Positions 3,154 to 51,828 of a DNA stretch of 64,000 bases are shown here, in pieces. How positions within the stretch are numbered: position 1 is the stretch's first letter; each line of letters starts with the position of its first letter. Source of the DNA: Ruficoccus sp. ZRK36 (lineage in GTDB: Bacteria; Verrucomicrobiota; Verrucomicrobiia; Opitutales; Cerasicoccaceae); contig NZ_CP080649.1 in NCBI RefSeq assembly GCF_019603315.1, positions 2,180,176 through 2,244,175 of the forward strand, read 5' to 3'. A model generated the notes under the pieces. That model was not told the DNA's origin, searched no databases, and worked only from the letters and a program-made list of their open reading frames with translations. Made by a program: the position numbers and the translations under genes.

Positions 3154-6100
3154 TCAGGACTTGGTGGAGACGGTGGACTTTGCCTTGGGGGTGGGCAGCA
3201 GCATGCCGAGGCCGATCAGGGCGCACTGGCTGAGCCAGAAAATGAGCAGCCAGAAGAAGGCCTTGTCCATGAAGCCGTAGGAGTGCAGGCCGACGCCGAG
3301 CATATTCGTCCCGAACCACGAGGCAGCGGTCACGATATTCCCGAAAATAGCCAGCAGCATAAAGCCGCGCTCGCCGACGATGCGGCCCAGTCGGGCGTGC
3401 AGCATGAGCGCGCACCACAGTACGATGATGAGCGCGCCGTTTTCCTTCGGGTCCCAGCCCCAGAAGCGGCCCCAGCTCTGGTCGGCCCAGATGCCGCCAA
3501 GCATCGTCCCGACAAAGGAGAAGAGCAGCCCGAAGCAGGTGATGCCGTAAACCATCCGGTAGAGCGCTGCCTGGCTGTCTGCGGGGAGTCCCTTGGGCTG
3601 CGAGCGCACGGCGGGCTCCAGGGCGGCCCAGGCGCGCATCAGCACGTAGACGATGCCGAGCACCCCAGCGAGGAACGTGGCTGAGTAGCCGACGGTGATG
3701 ATAACCACGTGCGTGGCCAGCCAGAAGTTCGAGTCGAGCACAGCCTGCATCATTTCCAGCGTATCCCCGCTGAGCGCGAGGTTGTGCGCGATGATGAGCG
3801 TGACAAAGCCGATGATCCCGGCGGCAAAGGTGCCGATACCGTTACGGAAATACCGCCGCAGGAAGACCGCCAGCAGCACCGAGAACCAGCCCACGAAGAT
3901 GGCCGAGGAGTAGAGGTTCGTCACGGGTGGACGCCCCTGGATATACATACGCGCGCCCAGCCCGAAGGTGTGCACGAGAAAGGCCAGGACGAGTACCCAG
4001 TAGGCGCCGCTCTGGAGCGAGCGGGGCATCCACAGCCAGCTCACGGCCACCAGCAGAAAGACGAGCACGTAGAGGATGGTCGCCAGGTAGAAGGGCTCGA
4101 AAGTGTTGAAAAACTCCTCAAAGGCGACGCGCCCGGCGGGCGTATCAGGGGCCAGCTTTTCATGCAGGGCGTCCAGCGCTTCGTTGAAGCCCTCGGGGTT
4201 ACCCTGCCGCCAGAGGACGGCGAGCTTACCGTAGTCCTCGACGATAGGATTTATTTGGCCGGTGCGAATGGTCAGCAGGAGCGCCTCACCGAGATTGAGC
4301 CAGTCGTTCTCCTCCTCACCGGCTTCTGTCATCGGCGGGACGATGCCCATGTCGCCGATACGCGAAAGCTGCAGATAGCGGTTGGTGAGGAAATTAAAGC
4401 GCTCCAGGTCGTCCTCGTTAAAGGACTCGCCGCGCTCACTGCGGGCAAAGGCCTCGCGGCCGGGGCCGACGATGCGCTCCCATGCGCCGTACTCGAGCAG
4501 GATCTGGTCGAGGTTACCGCCGGGCTGGAGCTCGCGCGAGAGCAGGTCGTAGCGGGTGAGCGCGTTGGTGAGCTTGACCAGTTGTTTTTCGTAGACGGTG
4601 CGCTTTTCGGGGTCGGGGTTGATCTGCGCGGACATCTCCTGGATGGTCTGGAAGTGCGGGCGCAACTCGTCGAAGCTGAAGCGCGTGCGGCTCTCCTGCT
4701 GCCAACCGAAAAGGCCGAGCACCTGCGGGTTGTCGATGCGGAAGACGGGCATCTTGTCTGCGGCGACGGGGTTAAAGGACAGCTCCATGAACCACGCGAT
4801 GGCGCTGATCTTGCCGCCCCCATCGGGCAGGTGCACGCTCTGGCGTCCACTGAGGATGCGCAGGCTGTTGCGGGCCACTGAGTCCAGCGGCAGGATGCGC
4901 CCACCGGCTTGCACCGGCAGCTCGGCAAAACTCTGGACGTGGAAATCCGTATCGTAGGCGGGCGGCTTAAAACCACGCGCAACGATGAGCAGGCCGATGG
5001 CCAGACACAGCGCCGGGATGAGGATTGGGCCGCGCGCGCGCGCGCTGGCCGAGAGTTTCGGGCGCTTGAAGTTGGCGAGGCGTATCAGGAACTGGATACA
5101 CATACCCAGTCCGACGAGGGCGACGGCGGCATAAGGGAGCAGCCAGCTCGGGTTGCGGACGACCTGGAGGACGGTGGTCGTGTTGTTGTTCCCGAAGGAG
5201 GCCTGGTAAAAGGTGTAGCCGCCGTGGCGCAGCGGGTGGTTCATGTAGATGAGCGCGGGCTGCGGGGCGATGCCGGGGGAGTGGATGAGCACGTCGCTGG
5301 CAAAGTTCTTGGGGATGTCGGTACCGGGGTACTTGTCGTGCGTGAAGTCGCGCAGCTCCAGCCAGAAGGGCAGGTAGGTCCGCGTGAAGCGCAGGGCGAT
5401 CTCGTAGGTCTTGCCACCGGTCTCGACGGTTTGCACCGGGAAGCGCTCGTCGATGACATTCGAGACGAGCCACGTGCCCAGCGGACCTTCCGGCCCGTCT
5501 ACCTCGACCAGTGCAGTGGCGGTGTTGACGGCGTCAGGGCTGTGGTCCATGGCCTTCTCCACGGCAAAGAGTCCCATGCGGGCGGCGGCTCCGCGGTTGG
5601 CGCGCGGGGTGGGGCCGTTGGGGTTCTGCATCTTGGTGCCCAGCCCGGAGTTGGGCATGAAGTCGATGATCTTCAGGCTAAGGCCGGACTCGGGCAGATC
5701 AATCACCGCCCCGTCCCTGAGCATGCTCTGCGGGATGCTGGTATACTCGTCGTAGTCGGGGTTTGAACGGTCGATCAGGACGAGTTCGTTTGAGAGGGAG
5801 TCGATGGCGTAGTTACTGCGTCCGCCCTCGTCGATGGCCATCTGGCTCTCGTGCTGGAGGTAGCTGACCAGAAAACCGCTCACCAGCAGCAGGACCACCC
5901 CGAGGTGGGTGATGGCTATCCCGGACTTTTTCCAGCTGGGCCGGTAGTAGCGGAAGTGCGCGCAGCACAGATTAATGATGAGCAGTATCCCCAGTGAAAA
6001 ACCGCCCGGCATCGGGAGCTTGAACCAGCCGGACTGCCAGACGGCGAGGAAGCTCTCGAAGTAGCGGCGCTGGGTCTCGTGGATGCCGAAGTGGACCTGA

Positions 6101-6192
6101 TCAAGCGTGCCAAAGATGACCAGAACGATGCTGAGCCCCAGCAGGACAACGGTTAACCAGAGCGAACTAAAAATACGGAACAGGGACTTCAT
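3154..6192 (-). CDS. ccsBA: Fused cytochrome c biogenesis protein CcsB-CcsA (system II)
   Basis: System II cytochrome c maturation moves heme to the periplasmic side and attaches it to apocytochrome c. This 1012-aa protein joins both membrane subunits. The N-terminal half is ResB/CcsB-like, with membrane segments near residues 10-30, 65-85 and 90-115 and a large periplasmic domain. The C-terminal half is CcsA/ResC-like, with multiple membrane segments and the tryptophan-rich heme-handling motif WGWDPKENGALIIVLW near residue 910. About 280 residues of soluble sequence (roughly 420-700) separate the parts, so the protein is on the long side for fused CcsBA proteins. Its ATG overlaps the stop of the upstream lipoprotein gene by 4 nt, implying translational coupling. 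Confidence 0.92.
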   Translation of the reverse strand: MKSLFRIFSSLWLTVVLLGLSIVLVIFGTLDQVHFGIHETQRRYFESFLAVWQSGWFKLPMPGGFSLGILLIINLCCAHFRYYRPSWKKSGIAITHLGVVLLLVSGFLVSYLQHESQMAIDEGGRSNYAIDSLSNELVLIDRSNPDYDEYTSIPQSMLRDGAVIDLPESGLSLKIIDFMPNSGLGTKMQNPNGPTPRANRGAAARMGLFAVEKAMDHSPDAVNTATALVEVDGPEGPLGTWLVSNVIDERFPVQTVETGGKTYEIALRFTRTYLPFWLELRDFTHDKYPGTDIPKNFASDVLIHSPGIAPQPALIYMNHPLRHGGYTFYQASFGNNNTTTVLQVVRNPSWLLPYAAVALVGLGMCIQFLIRLANFKRPKLSASARARGPILIPALCLAIGLLIVARGFKPPAYDTDFHVQSFAELPVQAGGRILPLDSVARNSLRILSGRQSVHLPDGGGKISAIAWFMELSFNPVAADKMPVFRIDNPQVLGLFGWQQESRTRFSFDELRPHFQTIQEMSAQINPDPEKRTVYEKQLVKLTNALTRYDLLSRELQPGGNLDQILLEYGAWERIVGPGREAFARSERGESFNEDDLERFNFLTNRYLQLSRIGDMGIVPPMTEAGEEENDWLNLGEALLLTIRTGQINPIVEDYGKLAVLWRQGNPEGFNEALDALHEKLAPDTPAGRVAFEEFFNTFEPFYLATILYVLVFLLVAVSWLWMPRSLQSGAYWVLVLAFLVHTFGLGARMYIQGRPPVTNLYSSAIFVGWFSVLLAVFLRRYFRNGIGTFAAGIIGFVTLIIAHNLALSGDTLEMMQAVLDSNFWLATHVVIITVGYSATFLAGVLGIVYVLMRAWAALEPAVRSQPKGLPADSQAALYRMVYGITCFGLLFSFVGTMLGGIWADQSWGRFWGWDPKENGALIIVLWCALMLHARLGRIVGERGFMLLAIFGNIVTAASWFGTNMLGVGLHSYGFMDKAFFWLLIFWLSQCALIGLGMLLPTPKAKSTVSTKS

Positions 6193-6872
6193 GAGGCAGG
6201 AAAGCGAACGGAGCGCACGAATGCGAGAAAAGCGGGCGTCTGGGCCTGAACGAGAGCGGTATCGCCCATCATCTTAAAGAACCAGCTCGCACCACCATGG
6301 GTAATAATCGCCCCGGCAATGCTCTGGCCGGTCGGGCCGTCGAGGTGGACGTAAAAGCCCTGCTCACCGCTGGCGGTGGTAAAGGAGTGCTTGGCGCGCT
6401 CTTCATCGAGACGGGCCTGAGGCATGGCGCCGAGGCCGACTTGCCCGGCCCAGCGGTTTACGTTGGCGAGGTCGCCACCGACGTTACCGGGAAAGACCAG
6501 GACGCTGACCTCGGCCGATGTGCCGTTGGGGCCGGGGACTTTCCAGCTGCCTTTGCGCATGGTGCCGAGGGGCTGGGCCTCCCAGTCGGAGGGGGCGTCC
6601 CAGGTCGGCGTATCAAAGGCGGCGGCTTGCTCAGCCATGCCTGGGAGGGCCGTCATGCCCATCGAAGGGCCGGAGCCAGACGGGGAGGAGGCCGCAGGAG
6701 CCGTTGCCGCTGTGCCGCCGGGGGCGGTGCTCTGGGCGGCAGGCATCATGCTGGGCATGGCCGGTCGCTCCTCTTTGGGGATACGAGTGGTGGTGACTTG
6801 TTCGTCCGAACAGCCGCTAAACAGAAGCGCAAGTGAGAGCAGCGCGCCTGCCGTGCAGGGGAAAGGTCGCAT
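6189..6872 (-). CDS. Lipoprotein coupled to ccsBA
   Basis: The 227-aa product begins with a signal ending LALLFSGCSDE, a lipobox that places it on the membrane as a lipoprotein. A Pro/Ala/Ser-rich linker (about residues 35-80) follows, then a compact domain beginning TPTWDAPSDWE and containing a probable beta-rich core (residues 90-225). I do not know a function for this domain, which I associate with Verrucomicrobiota and Planctomycetes lipoproteins. The stop codon overlaps the ccsBA start by 4 nt, so the two are co-translated; a role at the periplasmic site of cytochrome maturation is inferred only from that. Confidence 0.75.
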   Translation of the reverse strand: MRPFPCTAGALLSLALLFSGCSDEQVTTTRIPKEERPAMPSMMPAAQSTAPGGTAATAPAASSPSGSGPSMGMTALPGMAEQAAAFDTPTWDAPSDWEAQPLGTMRKGSWKVPGPNGTSAEVSVLVFPGNVGGDLANVNRWAGQVGLGAMPQARLDEERAKHSFTTASGEQGFYVHLDGPTGQSIAGAIITHGGASWFFKMMGDTALVQAQTPAFLAFVRSVRFPAS

Positions 6873-43384: not shown

Positions 43385-44209
43385 TCAGGCGGCCTCACGG
43401 GCGAGATGTTTCGCCCGCTTGGTATAGAAGCGTCTCAGGGCGACGGGGTTGGTCCGTTGGAAGAACCACTTGTGGCGGACCATTCCGACCTCTGCGTTGC
43501 TGGGGCGGACCCGGATGGTCTTTACGGTCTTGGCCGTCTCGTAGAACTCCATCAGGAGCCTGACCCAGTTGACGGCCTTCTCGGCGTTGAGGGTTCCGCT
43601 GTGGTGGCGGACTTCGATGGTGCGGTGGCGGAAATAGGCTTGGATGTTCAGCTTCATGAAACGGCTCGGGTAGAGTCTGCCGAGGTCTTCCATCGTGTCG
43701 CAGCGGTCGATGGCCTCGAAGGCTTGCTGGCAGCATTGGGCCTGCGTGCGTCCGTTGGCGAGATCCCCGAAGTGTCCGAGATTGGACTGGCAGTAGCAGT
43801 TTGTGCTTTTGCGGCGGCTTTGAGGCTGGAAGGTGTCGAAGACATCTTCGAACTTCACCCAGAGCTTCACCAGTTTGCGGGCGTGGTGGATGGTGAAGTC
43901 GTCCACGTTCATGTGGACATGGAAACCGGTCTGCTTGTTGACCTGTGCGCCTGCGGCGTCGAGAGCGTCGCAGACCTTGGCGATTTGCCGGAGCCCTTCC
44001 TCGCCCTGAAGGATGGGGCTGACGGCTTCCAGCCCGCAGGAGGAGTCGGTGACGACTTTCCACATGGGGCAGGTCCGGTGGTTGTAAGACTGGCGTTCGG
44101 TGCTGATCCCGGCGGCGTTCATGGCATCGACAGCGGCTTGCTGGCTGATTCCGGTGAATTCGAGTTCGACCCCGTATTGGCGTTGGCTGGCGGTAGATGT
44201 GTTAGTCAT
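43385..44209 (-). CDS. Amidoligase-family enzyme
   Basis: The 274-aa product matches the amidoligase (COOH-NH2 ligase) fold, a relative of glutamine synthetase and glutamate-cysteine ligase: YGVELEFTGIS (near 12-22) with the metal-binding Glu pair, VVTDSSCGLEAVSPIL (about 52-67), GFHVHMNVDDF (about 94-104) and RTIEVRHHSGTLNAEKAVNW (about 198-217). These enzymes use ATP to form amide bonds, predicted to act on peptides or cell-wall amines, and are frequent on phages and plasmids. Its promoter region carries a dyad operator (44233-44247) shared with the next minus-strand gene. Confidence 0.82.
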   Translation of the reverse strand: MTNTSTASQRQYGVELEFTGISQQAAVDAMNAAGISTERQSYNHRTCPMWKVVTDSSCGLEAVSPILQGEEGLRQIAKVCDALDAAGAQVNKQTGFHVHMNVDDFTIHHARKLVKLWVKFEDVFDTFQPQSRRKSTNCYCQSNLGHFGDLANGRTQAQCCQQAFEAIDRCDTMEDLGRLYPSRFMKLNIQAYFRHRTIEVRHHSGTLNAEKAVNWVRLLMEFYETAKTVKTIRVRPSNAEVGMVRHKWFFQRTNPVALRRFYTKRAKHLAREAA

Positions 44210-46446: not shown

Positions 46447-47277
46447 ATGATCGAAACCGCCTCTGACTGGCCGAGGAAACCGGACCGCCAGTTGGAGATC
46501 ACGCCGCCCGGTCACGGCTGGCTCCTGCCGATCCTCTTGGAGGTGGAGAGCCGCTGTTGGGGCCGGTGGGAGCACTGGACGCGAACGATGGAAGCCGGAC
46601 GCATCTTGGATGAACCGATCCCGCCCATTGCCTTTGAACCACTGTCCCCGCTACCGCGCAAGATGCACGAGAAGTCTCTCGACAGTATTTCACCAAGCGG
46701 CGGGTGGCAGGGCTGGGACAGTTGGCGATTGTTCGATTACTATCTGGACTGGTTGCTCTACGCTTTCGGGGACAGTCGCCAGAAAGAGCCGCCACCCGAG
46801 CCCGCGCCGGGAGCGTTCAGCCGACTCTATCAGGTATTCTGCCTCGAAGCCATGATTGCCTGGCCCTGCGACACCTTCGGAAAACTGATGGCCGAGAATC
46901 GCCACGGGCGCGGGGCCGGGTTCTTCCCCACGCCCGAGCATGTGGTTGGAATGATGGTGCAAATGATGTTCCCTGATGGCGAGGACTACCGCCTCAAAAC
47001 CGTCTGCGACCCCTGCGTCGGCACCGGGCGCATGATCCTTCACGCCAGTAACTACTCCTACCGACTCTACGCTCAGGACATCAACCCGACCGTCATCAAA
47101 GCCTGCCTTGTGAACGGCTACTGCTTCGCCCCGTGGCTCGTCAGGCCGTTTCCCTTTCTTCGGGAGTTGCCCGCCGAGGACGTGAGCCAGCCGCTAACGG
47201 TCCCGGAAACTGCGCAGATTTCCCGCCCTGCACGGGTGGAAAAGCCAACTCAAATGATACTGCTTGACGGGATTTGA
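46447..47277 (+). CDS. N6-adenine-methylase-like protein without visible motif IV
   Basis: The 276-aa protein shows the N6_Mtase type region GFFPTPEHVVGMMVQMMF (about residues 157-174), the SAM-binding motif I CDPCVGTGRMILHAS (about 189-203) and motif II-like LYAQDINPTVIKACLVNGY. The expected catalytic motif IV (NPPF/NPPY) does not appear before the C-terminus, which ends LLDGI. Either it is a SAM-binding pseudo-enzyme, or its catalytic part has been lost. The stop codon TGA is part of the TTGACA box preceding the next gene. Confidence 0.7.
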   Translation: MIETASDWPRKPDRQLEITPPGHGWLLPILLEVESRCWGRWEHWTRTMEAGRILDEPIPPIAFEPLSPLPRKMHEKSLDSISPSGGWQGWDSWRLFDYYLDWLLYAFGDSRQKEPPPEPAPGAFSRLYQVFCLEAMIAWPCDTFGKLMAENRHGRGAGFFPTPEHVVGMMVQMMFPDGEDYRLKTVCDPCVGTGRMILHASNYSYRLYAQDINPTVIKACLVNGYCFAPWLVRPFPFLRELPAEDVSQPLTVPETAQISRPARVEKPTQMILLDGI

Positions 47278-47279
47278 CA
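47274..47279 (+). promoter_or_regulatory. TTGACA start-proximal box, ParB gene
   Basis: TTGACA overlaps the stop of the methylase-like gene and ends 14 nt before ATG 47294; the start codon is preceded by GGC, with no Shine-Dalgarno. Confidence 0.45.
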
Positions 47280-47293
47280 CCGTTGCCGCAGGC

Positions 47294-47944
47294 ATGAGCA
47301 AAGCGGCAACGCCCAAGGCAAAGGGACTGGCGGACGGGATTGAAGTGTGGTGCAGCTTCGACAAGCTGGTTCCGATTGAGGATTTGAAACCCAACCCGCG
47401 CAATCCCAATACGCACCCGGCGCGGCAGGTTGAGCTTCTGGCGAAGAACGTCCGCTACTTCGGCTGGCGTCATCCCATCACGGTTTCGAATCGCTCCGGG
47501 TTCATCGTGGCGGGACATGGCCGGTTGGAGGCGGCCCGCGAGCTTGGCGTCCAACTGGTGCCGGTGGATTACCAGGACTTTGCCTCGGACAATGACGAGA
47601 TGGCCGTGCTGGTGGCGGACAACCGCCTGGCGGAACTGGCCAGCCTCGATCTGAATTCGCTCGAAGGCATTATTGACGAATTGCGGGTGGCCGACTTCGA
47701 CACCCTCCTGACCGGCTTTGACGAGACCGACCTGGCCAGCCTTTTGCAGGGAGATGACGCCGCGCCGGGCGACGATGATGACGATGACGAACTGGACAAA
47801 GGCGACGTGACGATTGTGCTCGGTCTGTACCGCTTCAAGTTGACGCAGGAAGACTACCTGGCGTGGATCGACCGCGTCAAGCAGGACGTGGGCTTCGACA
47901 AGCAGGCCGTCACCAAGGAACTGCGCCGGAGGCTCGGGGTTTGA
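47294..47944 (+). CDS. Stand-alone ParB/Srx-fold protein
   Basis: Starting at ATG 47294 the 216-aa protein has a ParB N-terminal domain: PIEDLKPNPRNPNTHPARQ, then FGWRHPITVSNRSGFIVAGH, then GRLEAARELGVQLVPV and ADNRLAELASLD (about residues 20-120). In many phage proteins this domain is followed by an N4/N6 DNA methylase; here the methylase is missing and the chain ends with an acidic run (DDDDDDEL) and a short helix. ParB domains of this class may act as nucleases or nucleotide hydrolases. It lies between a methylase-like gene and a C5-methylase gene. Confidence 0.82.
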   Translation: MSKAATPKAKGLADGIEVWCSFDKLVPIEDLKPNPRNPNTHPARQVELLAKNVRYFGWRHPITVSNRSGFIVAGHGRLEAARELGVQLVPVDYQDFASDNDEMAVLVADNRLAELASLDLNSLEGIIDELRVADFDTLLTGFDETDLASLLQGDDAAPGDDDDDDELDKGDVTIVLGLYRFKLTQEDYLAWIDRVKQDVGFDKQAVTKELRRRLGV

Positions 47945-47968: not shown

Positions 47969-49021
47969 ATGATGAGCGCCTATTACAACGAGTATGATTC
48001 GGGGGCGGCGGCATGGCTAGGAGAGCTGATCAAGGACGGGCTGATTCCGCCCGGCGATGTGGACCAACGCAGTATCGAGTATGTATCGGCAGACGACCTT
48101 GAACCTTACCGCCAGTGCCACTTCTTTGCCGGAATCGGCGGATGGCCCCATGCGCTCAAACTCGCCGGATGGCCGGACGACAAACCCGTCTGGACCGGCA
48201 GTTGCCCGTGCCCCCCGTTCTCGTCGGCAAGCAAAGGACAGACGTGCCCTGGATGCGGTGGCAAATACTGTCTGTCGCATCCACTCGTCACAGCCGGATG
48301 GATATGTCTCGATTGCGGGGACCAATGGCGGGGTGATGATCGCCATTTACTCCCCGAGTTTCAGCGCCTCATCGGCCAGTGCGGCCCTTCAGTCGTATTT
48401 GGAGAGCAGGTTGCGAGCGCGGATGGTCGGCACTGGCTCTACTCTCTACGCGCTACGCTGGAAAAAATGGGATATGCCGTCGGGGCCGCCGATTTGTGCG
48501 CTGCGGGCGTCGGCGCTCCGCACATCCGCCAGCGGCTCTACTGGTGCGCTCACCATCTGCGATCTTCCCCTGTCGCCCTGGGCAACGCCATCGAGCCGGG
48601 ACTGGAAGGATTCGGCGGGCATGGCGACGGAAGCCATCAACCCGGACGGGAGCAGGCGGACCCGGCTCGATCAGTTGCCCAGACTGGTGCAACTGGCGGG
48701 ATGGTCGACACCGCGCTCGACGGACGACAGATGCGGGAAGCACTACACTCCGGGGTGCAATGGCAGGGATTTGTCGAAAGACACCATGCTGACAGCCTGC
48801 GACCGGCCTGTCCGACTGACGGATTCTGGAGAAATGTTGATTGGCTCTTGTGCCGGGATGCCAGGTGGCGGGCAGTTGAGCCCGGCTCATTCCCGCTGGC
48901 TCATGGGCTATCCGCCCGAGTGGGACGCCTGCGCGGTTACGGCAATGCCATCGTCCCGCAAGTCGCCTCGGCGTTCATTCAGGCATACGCGGAAGCCTTG
49001 AAAAGCTTGGATGGTTTTTGA
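47969..49021 (+). CDS. Phage C5-cytosine DNA methyltransferase
   Basis: The 350-aa protein has motif [14 protein letters not shown] (about residues 51-63), catalytic motif [14 protein letters not shown] (Cys81 expected; the usual PCQ is PCP), a four-Cys insertion TCPGCGGKY...CLDCGDQW (about 92-125) that looks like a zinc ribbon, motif VI variant VFGEQVAS, motif [12 protein letters not shown] and motif [16 protein letters not shown]. It would methylate cytosine in a specific sequence, probably protecting phage DNA. A second reading frame in the same DNA is also open (see 48336-49001). Confidence 0.85.
48336..49001 (+). CDS. Possible overlapping gene inside the C5-methylase
   Basis: In the +1 frame relative to the methylase, ATG 48336 opens a 221-aa frame reading [20 protein letters not shown], then [11 protein letters not shown], then [12 protein letters not shown] and [21 protein letters not shown] recall annotated phage proteins with W-x-T-P repeats and the R-W-L-M-G-x-P-x-x-W-D ending, many next to or overlapping C5-methylases. 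It may be a real dual-coded gene or an often annotated shadow frame; the sequence alone cannot settle it. Confidence 0.3.
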
Positions 49022-49043: not shown

Positions 49044-50558
49044 ATGAGCACCCAACTGGAATCCATCGACGCGGTTCAGCCCAGCACCTACAATCCGCGC
49101 AGTGCCGACGCGGAGCGTCTGGACCTGATCGAGTTATCCCTCCGCAAGCTCGGCTTTCTCGCGCCCATCTTTGCCGACAGCAACGGGGAAATCCTCTCCG
49201 GGCACCAGCGCCATCTGGTGGCCTCGCGCATGGGGGCGACGCAGATCCCGGTTTTCCGCACCAAGCCGATGCCGATTGCCCAGCGCAAGGCGCTCAACAT
49301 CGTCTTCAACCGGGCCACAAACGATTTCGACTGGCACACCACGCCGGAGAAGGCCACCCGCGAACTGGCCGCGCTCGATGTTCATAAGCTCGCGGAGTCC
49401 ATCCCGGACAAGGCGGTGGACTCCCCGGAGTTCATCCGTTGCCTGCGCCCGAGTCAGGTCAGCGTGAAGGAACTGTGCCGGGCCAACGCGAACCGCTGGC
49501 TCCAGTATGCCCGCAACCTTGCCCGCACCATGCATCGCCAGGGCATCCTCATGCCGCTGGTCTGCCGACGTGACGGCACCGTGGTCAACGGCATCGGACG
49601 GCTGGAAATGCTCGCGGAAAAGAAGTTTGAGACCGCGCCGGTAGTCTATGTCACTGATGAAGAGGCGGGGTTCGCCCACTCCATGATGAACCTGCTCTCG
49701 ATGGACTTCGATGTGCGTACCCGTTACGCCGATTTGCTGCGCTACAATTCCTTCCGGCGCGCCCGTCGCGTGCGGGAGGAATTGGGCAACGGGTTTATCT
49801 TTACGGTCCACGGCTCGAAGCCCTGCCACAGCTTCGACATTTTTAATCCGAAGCAGCGGGCCGCCTGGGTGCGTGAGCACGGCACGAGCATCCTCGACTT
49901 TGGGGCCGGCCACTTGACCGAAACGAAAATGCTGCGTCGGGCGGGGCTGTCCGTCACTCCCTTCGAGCCCTACCACATCACCCGGTTGGAAATCGACAAG
50001 GCCCGCAGTCTCGAACTGGTGCGGGAGTTCTTGCAGGCTGTGGCCGATGGAACTGAGTGGACTTCGATCTTCCTGGCCAGCGTGCTCAACTCCGTGCCGT
50101 TCCAGTCCGACCGCGAGCACATCGCCGTTCTGTTAGCCGCCCTCTGCAAACCTTTCACCAAAGTGTACGCCTGCGCTTCCAGCGTGGGCGAAACCGGGTG
50201 GCGGCAGGTCAACGGCAAAGCCTTTCTCAACAAGTCGAACTCGGGCAACATCTCTTTTCGGCTCGACTACGAACCGGGCGTTCGCATCGGGGATTTTCAG
50301 GAAAAACCGAAGGTCCAGAAGTACCACACACAAAAAGAATTTTATCAGCTATGGACTCCCTTCTTCCGCTCCGTTAGTATCCGGGAGTTGAGCAACAATA
50401 TCACCGCCAAATGCGAACACGCCCTCCCGGTCGATACCGACCGGCTCCGGGAAGCGGTTGAGTTCGAGTTCGATCTTCCCTATCCTGACGGCTCCCGCAT
50501 GGGCCTGGTGGACGAAGCCAAAGAAGCCTTTTTCCGACGACTGAAAGTATCCCTATGA
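49044..50558 (+). CDS. Tandem ParB domains fused to a SAM-dependent methyltransferase domain
   Basis: This 504-aa protein starts with a ParB-type domain (VQPSTYNPRSADAERLDLIE then LSGHQRHLVASRMGATQIPV, about residues 10-85), continues with a second ParB-like unit (ARTMHRQGILMPLVCRRDGT then VNGIGRLEMLAEKKFETAPV, about 160-210), and ends in a domain with class I methyltransferase motif I SILDFGAGHLTETKMLRRAG (about 286-305). I do not recognise this whole architecture as a named family. The start overlaps nothing but follows the TTGACA box; its end overlaps the HAD gene by 4 nt, so those two act together. Base modification or DNA tagging is the likely theme. Confidence 0.72.
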   Translation: MSTQLESIDAVQPSTYNPRSADAERLDLIELSLRKLGFLAPIFADSNGEILSGHQRHLVASRMGATQIPVFRTKPMPIAQRKALNIVFNRATNDFDWHTTPEKATRELAALDVHKLAESIPDKAVDSPEFIRCLRPSQVSVKELCRANANRWLQYARNLARTMHRQGILMPLVCRRDGTVVNGIGRLEMLAEKKFETAPVVYVTDEEAGFAHSMMNLLSMDFDVRTRYADLLRYNSFRRARRVREELGNGFIFTVHGSKPCHSFDIFNPKQRAAWVREHGTSILDFGAGHLTETKMLRRAGLSVTPFEPYHITRLEIDKARSLELVREFLQAVADGTEWTSIFLASVLNSVPFQSDREHIAVLLAALCKPFTKVYACASSVGETGWRQVNGKAFLNKSNSGNISFRLDYEPGVRIGDFQEKPKVQKYHTQKEFYQLWTPFFRSVSIRELSNNITAKCEHALPVDTDRLREAVEFEFDLPYPDGSRMGLVDEAKEAFFRRLKVSL

Positions 50559-50980
50559 TTTATTTACTGGACTTGAACTACACGCTGGTGGCGAATTCTC
50601 CCGAGCGGGGCACGCCGCCCGTGCGCCCTTTTACCCGCCAACTTGAGCAGGAGGAATACCGCCAATGGCTGGTGGACTTCCTCCGGCCTCACCGGGTCAT
50701 CCTCATCACCGCCCGTCCGAATCGCTACCGCGAGGCGACGCTGGCCCGGATCAAGGAAAAGTGCCAGTGGGAACCGATGGACGCCTACTATGCGGAAATC
50801 TCCTCCTATCCGCACCTGATTAAGGAACACCTCTTGAAGACTCATATCTTCCCAAAGTACGGCAGCGAGGGTTCCGGTTACTTCGGGCTGGAAAGCAACC
50901 CCCGCACCCGCACCATGTACGCCCGCTATGGGATTGAGGCCATCCGGGTCTCCGATCACGAGTTGCTGGAGGACGCTTGA
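50555..50980 (+). CDS. HAD-superfamily hydrolase-like protein (141 aa)
   Basis: A small HAD protein: motif I LLDLNYTLVANSP (Asp6 nucleophile in D-x-N-x-T), motif II VILITARPNRYREATLARI (Thr near residue 51), no clear cap domain and a C-terminal G-x-E-S-N-P-R-T-R-T-M stretch. HAD enzymes of this type remove phosphate from nucleotides or nucleic-acid ends. It is coupled to the ParB-methyltransferase gene by a 4-nt overlap and followed by a terminator. Confidence 0.7.
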   Translation: MIYLLDLNYTLVANSPERGTPPVRPFTRQLEQEEYRQWLVDFLRPHRVILITARPNRYREATLARIKEKCQWEPMDAYYAEISSYPHLIKEHLLKTHIFPKYGSEGSGYFGLESNPRTRTMYARYGIEAIRVSDHELLEDA

Positions 50981-51123: not shown

Positions 51124-51828
51124 ATGAACGCCGACATCGAAGCCGACAACGGGATTACCACCGAAGCAAGCAACTGGGTCTTTGACGAGCACGTCGCCCC
51201 GCACTTCGACGAGCATGTCCGCAAGAGCGTCCCGGAATACGACCGGGTGCAGGAACTCGCCGCCACCTTCTCGGACTGGTTTACGCATCCCGATTGCACC
51301 GTGCTGGATTTTGGAGCGGCCACCGGCGAAACCCTGCGCCTTATCCGTGAGCGCCACCGCAAAGCTCTTACGCTGATCGGCTACGATAACTCGCAAGCCA
51401 TGATCGCTCAGGCGGCCAACAAGGGCATTGAGGTCACGTTCACCGACCTTGAACGCCTTTCGGATATTCCGCCCTTCGCCTATGGCGTCGCGCTGTACAC
51501 CCTGCAATTCCTGCGTCCGCAGGCCCGCCAGCAACTTGTGTATCAAATCGCCAATACGATTGAGCGCGGCGGCGGCCTGTTCGTGGTGGAAAAAGTGCTC
51601 GGGAGTTACCCCACCACGCAGGACATCATTCAGCAGCTTTATTGGGACATGAAGATAAGTAACGGACTGACCCCCGCCCAGGTCATCAACAAGGCCCACG
51701 CCCTGCGCGGGTGCATGTTCCCGAAGACGATTGCCGAAAACGAAGCCGAGTTTCGCGCCGCCGGTTTCTCGCAAATCGAACTTGTTTTCAAGGACCTCCA
51801 GTTCTGCGGCTGGCTCCTGATCCGCTGA
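51124..51828 (+). CDS. Class I SAM-dependent methyltransferase (234 aa)
   Basis: Motif I VLDFGAATGETLRLIRERH lies near residues 60-78, followed by GYDNSQAMIAQAANKGIEVT (motif II and beta strand) and a conserved EKVLGSYPTT. Layout is like carboxyl- or small-molecule methyltransferases of the CmoA/CmoB-related group (mixed-type motif with ALYTLQFLRPQARQQL). Whether it methylates DNA, tRNA or a small molecule is unclear. It lies between the modification operon and the terminase genes and may be part of either. Confidence 0.75.
   Translation: MNADIEADNGITTEASNWVFDEHVAPHFDEHVRKSVPEYDRVQELAATFSDWFTHPDCTVLDFGAATGETLRLIRERHRKALTLIGYDNSQAMIAQAANKGIEVTFTDLERLSDIPPFAYGVALYTLQFLRPQARQQLVYQIANTIERGGGLFVVEKVLGSYPTTQDIIQQLYWDMKISNGLTPAQVINKAHALRGCMFPKTIAENEAEFRAAGFSQIELVFKDLQFCGWLLIR

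Follow-up and report, generated by a model that had tools for sequence, protein, structure and literature searches.

CmoA is the carboxy-S-adenosylmethionine (Cx-SAM) synthase, an enzyme whose classical role lies in tRNA. The Synechococcus phage S-B43 is reported to carry its own CmoA together with a C5-type transferase, CmoX, and a ligase, CmoY, leading to 5-carboxymethylcytosine and its glycine amide (Yang et al., PMC12783734). This December 2025 report of carboxymethylcytosine as a natural DNA base describes one transferase type, mentions ParBc proteins near CmoX, without known function there, and states that no CmoA-linked candidates for an N6-adenine or N4-cytosine carboxymethyltransferase came out of a preliminary search. 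Fusions of ParB to a Methyltransf_23 domain are reported to be more frequent in phages (PMC12704722); in the same source, ParB-CTPase folds use a Box-II arginine to bind CTP, ATP or GTP, and ATP binding is described for a bacterial ParB-SAM-methyltransferase fusion. Here we analyse a gene module within a 64,000-nucleotide stretch of Ruficoccus sp. ZRK36 (contig NZ_CP080649.1, positions 2,180,176 to 2,244,175; hereafter the window), in which a fusion of two ParB-like units to a methyltransferase domain is accompanied by a HAD gene and a CmoA-like gene.

Judging from its sequence, and with moderate confidence, we read this module as a second, non-CmoX route to carboxymethylated phage DNA. The CmoA-like enzyme would, by homology, turn S-adenosylmethionine (SAM) and prephenate into Cx-SAM, and we infer that the fusion would move the carboxymethyl group from Cx-SAM onto a base of the phage DNA, doing the job of CmoX with a methyltransferase domain devoid of C5-methylase machinery. 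Its ParB units and a separate ParB protein would guide the fusion to DNA, and loading gated by nucleoside triphosphates (NTPs) is predicted to be plausible, since ParB-CTPase folds bind such nucleotides and the bacterial fusion bound ATP. In a speculative third step, a nucleic acid or nucleotide might be the substrate of the HAD accessory, and the carboxylate may be decorated by a ligase, for example an amidoligase. Protection from host nucleases would be the likely benefit. The original prediction, made from the letters of the window, had suggested either DNA hypermodification or nucleotide salvage; hypermodification is now well supported, on a basis that had gone unnoticed, namely the adjacent CmoA-like gene and its conserved linkage, and no support was found for nucleotide salvage.

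The fusion gene (49044–50558, on the forward strand, as are all genes below unless stated) runs from an ATG at 49044 to a stop ending at 50558 and encodes 504 amino acids; an alternative in-frame ATG at 49011 would give 515. The open reading frame, the PF02195 match, a profile comparison and the predicted fold agree with the architecture first claimed for it, two ParB-like units and a C-terminal methyltransferase. In the first unit (residues 1–105, 49044–49358), ParB_N (PF02195) matched residues 7–71 at 29 bits against a Pfam cut-off of 26.3, and the box G53-H54-Q55-R56 was invariant in 26 of 26 aligned sequences. Both marks of a ParB-CTPase fold were thus found, a PF02195 match above cut-off and the invariant R56, taken as the Box-II arginine on the strength of the G-H-Q-R motif. 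The second, diverged unit (residues 130–222, 49431–49709; N182, G183 and R186 invariant in 26/26) was not detected by Pfam; comparison of the profiles of residues 1–105 and 130–222 gave a probability of 96.6 and a score of 54.7, the best of 30 column shuffles scoring 15.5. Residues 6–501 matched PHROG 5475 (E 2.8e-106), annotated as of unknown function. Because of this match, and because relatives occur in contigs of several phyla (titled Verrucomicrobia, Alphaproteobacteria, Vibrio, Photobacterium, Clostridiaceae, Lachnospiraceae, Desulfovibrionaceae, Chloroflexi, Paracoccus and others), the fusion is not a chance open reading frame.

The methyltransferase domain (residues ~228–465, 49725–50438) was delimited on the 26-sequence alignment and on the AlphaFold2 model built from it (mean predicted local distance difference test, pLDDT, 90.3; predicted template modelling score, pTM, 0.84). 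A SAM-binding fold, whose absence had been named beforehand as grounds for abandoning the original prediction, is indeed predicted: the domain is of class I, with a Rossmann-like fold, a glycine-rich motif I and an acidic residue after β2. Pfam gave only a sub-threshold methyltransferase match. Foldseek ranked class I SAM methyltransferases best for the fusion (E 2.5e-5) and also matched it to the ParB-type Noc protein (E 1.7e-4), and VIA-align placed METTL6 (tRNA m3C methyltransferase) at the top, with the next rows tied (Z 13.9, 198 residues, root-mean-square deviation (rmsd) 3.9, mostly over model residues ~222–465). Residues R233, R239, D285, G287, G289, E308, N349, S350, P352, F353, D356, R357, P422, K423, Q425 and K426 were invariant in all 26 sequences.

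Amino-methyltransferases acting on N6 of adenine or N4 of cytosine carry a motif IV of the form (D/N/S)PP(Y/F/W), and C5 methylases carry a PC motif. The stretch after β4 of the fusion reads L-N-S-V-P-F, neither PPY-type nor PC, so that the motif IV of a DNA N6-A/N4-C methyltransferase is missing from the fusion; furthermore, no match of the fusion to PF00145 (C5 methylases) was found up to E 1. In CmoB, residues K91, Y200 and R315 are reported to contact the carboxymethyl group (PMC4482062). By motif position, N349 of the fusion may stand at the place of Y200, and K423/K426 would precede the last helix, in the stretch that holds the CmoA arginine.

The CmoA-like gene (51124–51828) encodes the proposed carboxy-SAM synthase. 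The fusion had been said to sit among a C5 methylase, a stand-alone ParB and another methyltransferase; the first two were placed as claimed, and the last, downstream, is this CmoA homologue. Its protein matched E. coli CmoA (EcCmoA; PDB 4gek) at E 7e-22, as well as phrog_4752, whose label, tRNA methyltransferase, is probably misleading here. R199 of EcCmoA is reported to bind the carboxylate (PMC3663124, PMC4482062). At positions 199/203 of EcCmoA numbering, EcCmoA has R/E, the verified SpCmoA E/R and the window protein A191/R195, its R195 thus occupying the place of the SpCmoA arginine; from the aligned sequences, R203 may take over the role of R199. In an alignment of 197 CmoA rows, which is redundant and includes the E. 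coli, window and SpCmoA rows, 153 had R/E and 23, SpCmoA among them, another residue with Arg203, so that arginine was kept at one or other position in 176; the remainder comprised 11 E/S rows, seven other combinations (SM1 and HJ05 among them) and three gapped rows. The E/S rows (L170, L172, L174–L176, L179, L181, L187, L196, L198 and L207) are weak matches and carry a KELSLSGVQRP-type sequence in the R199/R203 region.

Linkage of the two genes was counted in viral contigs scanned with the fusion, with the alignment (best 80 of 243 matches) and with three divergent members, and in genome contigs scanned once. Proteins of at least 480 amino acids and more than 400 bits, with identical proteins collapsed and the window locus excluded, gave 133 distinct fusions, 107 of them with at least 3 kb downstream and 108 with at least 1.5 kb upstream. 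In 104 of the 107 loci, a CmoA-like gene lay no more than 4 kb from the fusion, with 94 matches at 150 bits or more (profile built here) and 10 weak ones at 53–103 bits; a looser tally that admitted truncated proteins found CmoA for 109/112 fusions. Clustered at 60% identity, the 107 fusions formed 14 clusters, 13 of which had CmoA within 4 kb (nine strong, four weak only). The three exceptions were L177, with a CmoA ~4.7 kb off, and L152 and L154, whose 8 kb of downstream sequence yielded no CmoA and which, by eye, resemble element edges. Of the 108 loci, 106 had a match to the separate ParB protein no more than 4 kb from the fusion. The isolated phages SM1, HJ05 and Evaa (a Gordonia phage) carry the module, and the gene order observed in SM1 and HJ05 is ParB, fusion, CmoA, with nothing in between. 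Among 88 genomes searched, five matched, including the source genome itself and one ParB-only match. As a name-level control, the commonest names in phage records matching the ParB part only (Streptococcus, Microbacterium, Lactobacillus, Ruminococcus) were absent from the named CmoA tallies.

Scans started from CmoA showed that the two transferase types exclude each other as partners. For CmoA of the window type, 17 loci were recovered, 11 with the fusion (eight of these contigs already found through the fusion) and none with CmoX (E 1e-6); the other six had less than 1.5 kb of record upstream of CmoA, or only the fusion end (L244). For the SpCmoA type (best 80 of 280 matches), 66 loci had CmoX above 100 bits and none the fusion. 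At L173, a CmoX-like fragment lies at the locus edge, ~8 kb away, and 48 Erwinia records match SpCmoX, Y3 not being among the matches listed. Neither SpCmoX nor SpCmoY gave a tblastn match at E 1e-3 in the complete phages Evaa, HJ05 and SM1, and these phages had no PF00145 match in a search that was blind to the window's own C5 methylase too.

Furthermore, a tree of 40 CmoA proteins, whose bootstrap is unsettled and which has some long branches, with a long-branch warning around L222 and L170, indicated that partners have been switched. Its well-supported branches force at least four changes between a position beside the fusion and any other state, the latter comprising CmoX-type, partnerless and bacterial rows; the CmoX-type label was given to L221 and L224 by an adjacent C5 methylase (without the arginine) and to L225 and L226 by an adjacent CmoY. 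The CmoA of Streptomyces phage TurkishDelight, which has a CmoX partner, is sister to those of Evaa and L147, which have a fusion partner (100/99). The CmoA group of the window joins SpCmoA (98/94), and those of L003 and L101 belong to a different supported group (98/97); the fusions of these two loci are 72–75% identical to the window's and form one supported clade with it (100/100). CmoA types have therefore been exchanged beside fusions about 70–75% identical to that of the window. Since CmoA is found with two transferase types and is swapped for a distant version beside one of them, it most likely supplies the same product, Cx-SAM, to both. One further record, L228 (OR851014.1, a short, unverified 'Salmonella phage' fragment), has a CmoA that shares 94.5% of the residues compared with E. 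coli CmoA and is, because of this identity, probably host DNA.

The window does contain a C5-cytosine methylase (phrog_363; 47969–49021), encoded between the separate ParB and the fusion. CmoX has an arginine in place of the motif X asparagine (SpCmoX R350, HhaI N304), and the C-termini of the CmoX proteins of S-B43, PaBG and TurkishDelight, compared by eye, read G-R-x-V-P-P. The window methylase was considered as a CmoX and rejected: its motif X, GNAIVP, keeps the asparagine, and the gene is unconserved in the module, tblastn recovering its own copy alone among 87 loci and, elsewhere, 28% identity in two others. It also has cysteine pairs resembling a zinc ribbon.

Several observations weigh against a CmoX-independent carboxymethylation route. 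The program hhalign aligned the fusion with E. coli CmoB over motif I alone (19 columns, probability 20.7), as it did with EcCmoA and the window CmoA; no CmoB-type chain occurred among the 50 matches listed in the Foldseek or VIA-align searches, from which no exclusion follows. In the window CmoA-like protein, the residue equivalent to R199 is alanine, and both arginine positions are lost in 11 of the 197 rows (Alphaproteobacteria, Vibrio, Photobacterium, Desulfovibrionaceae) and also in SM1 and HJ05; CmoA-like proteins of this kind may be plain methyltransferases or may use another residue. The window protein scored 116.9 bits (E 1.1e-33) with TIGR00740, below the cut-off of 193.3, which is no argument against it because the verified SpCmoA, at 115.6 bits, is equally below. 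The linkage includes the 10 weak matches among 104 and the four of 13 linked clusters with weak matches only, and its independence is limited, the largest clusters holding 76 and 12 of the 107 fusions. The absence of a diverged C5 enzyme is weaker than it appears, because the PF00145 search missed the window's own methylase. Finally, the Staphylococcus phages L221 (F1) and L224 (SPbeta-like) pair CmoA with a C5 methylase that matches SpCmoX weakly and whose C-terminal motif, VVGGVINQ, lacks the CmoX arginine as well as the usual Asn, and the phage CmoA loci L220 and L223 have neither CmoX nor the fusion within 6 kb. At L223 (Alcaligenes phage Afa-NA1, CmoA at 6001–6753), a NUDIX hydrolase, a dTMP kinase and a DNA adenine methylase are annotated nearby, and a third CmoA partner may exist there.

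Three other explanations have to be weighed. The fusion could methylate DNA with SAM in the ordinary way, the CmoA-like protein being a second, plain methyltransferase or a SAM-consuming anti-defence protein, both belonging to one DNA-modification locus that makes no Cx-SAM. ParB-methyltransferase fusions are reported as frequent in phages (PMC12704722) and partial ParB matches were found here, the nearest solved folds of the fusion are methyltransferases, several of them determined with SAM or S-adenosylhomocysteine, and the E/S-type CmoA-like proteins have no carboxylate arginine. However, the window CmoA-like protein is as near to the CmoA model as the verified SpCmoA, arginine at 199 or 203 persists in most of the redundant rows, and a shared product best accounts for the finding that some phages pair CmoA with CmoX and others pair it with the fusion; we regard ordinary methylation as unlikely. 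It is less likely still that another gene, the stand-alone ParB neighbour or an unrecognised enzyme, uses Cx-SAM and that the fusion acts downstream of it, for instance by methylating a carboxylate as CmoM is reported to do on tRNA (PMC12783734). The fold of the fusion does resemble small-molecule methyltransferases, but the order in SM1 and HJ05 has no intervening gene; at other loci, the neighbours are annotated in part.

A supply of Cx-SAM by the phage CmoA for tRNA U34 (cmo5U), with the fusion performing an unrelated DNA methylation, would agree with the classical role of CmoA and with the annotation of phrog_4752, and appears very improbable. In the host assembly (3.76 Mb, two contigs), no CmoB scored over the cut-off, the best match reaching 43.9 against 275 bits, and besides the prophage gene the CmoA model found one weaker match, at 68.6 bits, both of which make a tRNA role unlikely. 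Moreover, contigs from several phyla carry the CmoA-like gene together with ParB and the fusion, and for one phage CmoA a role in DNA modification is already reported (PMC12783734). A carboxymethylation route through Cx-SAM and the fusion thus remains the reading that we prefer. Its stronger form, in which the fusion represents an independent second family of natural DNA carboxymethyltransferases that are gated by ParB, possibly depend on NTPs and modify a non-C5 position (an exocyclic or ring nitrogen), is put forward tentatively.

The HAD gene (50555–50980) begins at the ATG at 50555 and overlaps the fusion by 4 nt (ATGA), in agreement with the coupling to a DxNxT HAD protein originally described. 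Its motif is D6-L-N8-Y-T10, with D6 invariant in 21/21 rows and N8 in at least 90%, and the protein matched phrog_32036, of unknown function. A PDB sequence search gave one match up to E 1, at E 0.45. The model (pLDDT 94.0) came closest to the 3'-phosphatase domain of T4 polynucleotide kinase (5uj0_B; Z 15.6, 123 residues, rmsd 2.4). Phosphatases of the T4 Pnkp type have a catalytic DxD; the window protein has DxN instead. HAD lay within 4 kb of the fusion in 97 of 107 distinct full-length loci and was missing in 10, including SM1, HJ05 and Vibrio and Desulfovibrionaceae lineages, and for this reason we count it as an accessory. At L167, L168, L241 and L242, the downstream HAD is joined by a second paralogue upstream of the fusion.

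Around the module lie genes for an integrase, recombination, replication, a terminase small subunit and the phage head, consistent with a prophage. Upstream of the fusion lies the gene for the stand-alone ParB-like protein (47264–47944), the neighbour kept with it. Another gene (46447–47277) encodes an N6-methylase-like protein (PF02384, E 9e-6) in which no NPPY-type motif was seen by eye and which has tblastn matches in 4 of 87 related loci; it is possibly degenerate. An Amidoligase_2 gene (PF12224, E 2.4e-38; 43385–44209) lies on the reverse strand, opposite to the fusion, and a homologue occurs in 55 of 96 fusion loci, not deduplicated, with at least 6.5 kb upstream; as speculation, it could be a CmoY analogue that amidates or decorates a carboxylate handle. 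In a defence library, 'MTase_II' matched the separate ParB protein and, within the fusion, the ParB part; mad2 matched the CmoA-like protein weakly, and there were no other matches.

Phage CmoA with CmoX and ParB-methyltransferase fusions have already been published; no paper tying the fusion to CmoA was found among the matches listed from the openly licensed PMC literature. For restriction resistance of SM1-like phages, nothing useful was among the literature matches listed. The suggestion that the fusion belongs to no described family holds in that PHROG 5475 has no function assigned and fails in that the cluster is in the database and ParB-Methyltransf_23 fusions were published in 2025 (PMC12704722). 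The module is a concrete non-C5 candidate with strong CmoA linkage, in several phyla and in the isolated phages SM1, HJ05 and Evaa. If our reading is true, the module would either make a further, new DNA modification or reach a known one by a convergent route, and PHROG 5475 and one class of phage ParB fusions would acquire a role; the chance that the transferase family and the modified base are new is moderate. Such a family would offer phage hypermodification a different carboxylate handle, in viral contigs and in contigs of Verrucomicrobiota, Bacillota, Pseudomonadota and others.

In comparison with known systems, the module, whose fusion, HAD and CmoA-like proteins match PHROG 5475, phrog_32036 and phrog_4752, respectively, resembles the CmoA-CmoX-CmoY system of S-B43, which is reported to make 5cxmC and 5-glycylcarboxymethyl-C (PMC12783734): both have a phage CmoA with the same shifted arginine and a transferase nearby, and ParB-domain genes are often near. 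Unlike in S-B43, the transferase is no C5 methylase by PF00145, conserved ParB and HAD genes are present instead, and CmoY was not found by tblastn in Evaa, HJ05 or SM1. With the phage ParB-methyltransferase fusions (phrog_498, and the ParB-Methyltransf_23 fusions of PMC12704722, in whose main text the term CmoA is absent), the window fusion shares an N-terminal ParB fold, a SAM-dependent methyltransferase and a prophage setting; it differs in its two ParB-like units, its distinct methyltransferase domain and its strong CmoA linkage. As in the CmoA/CmoB pathway to cmo5U in tRNA, a CmoA-type cofactor synthase would feed a class I transferase, whereas the fusion has no detectable homology to E. 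coli CmoB beyond motif I, and its ParB units suggest DNA, rather than tRNA, as the target.

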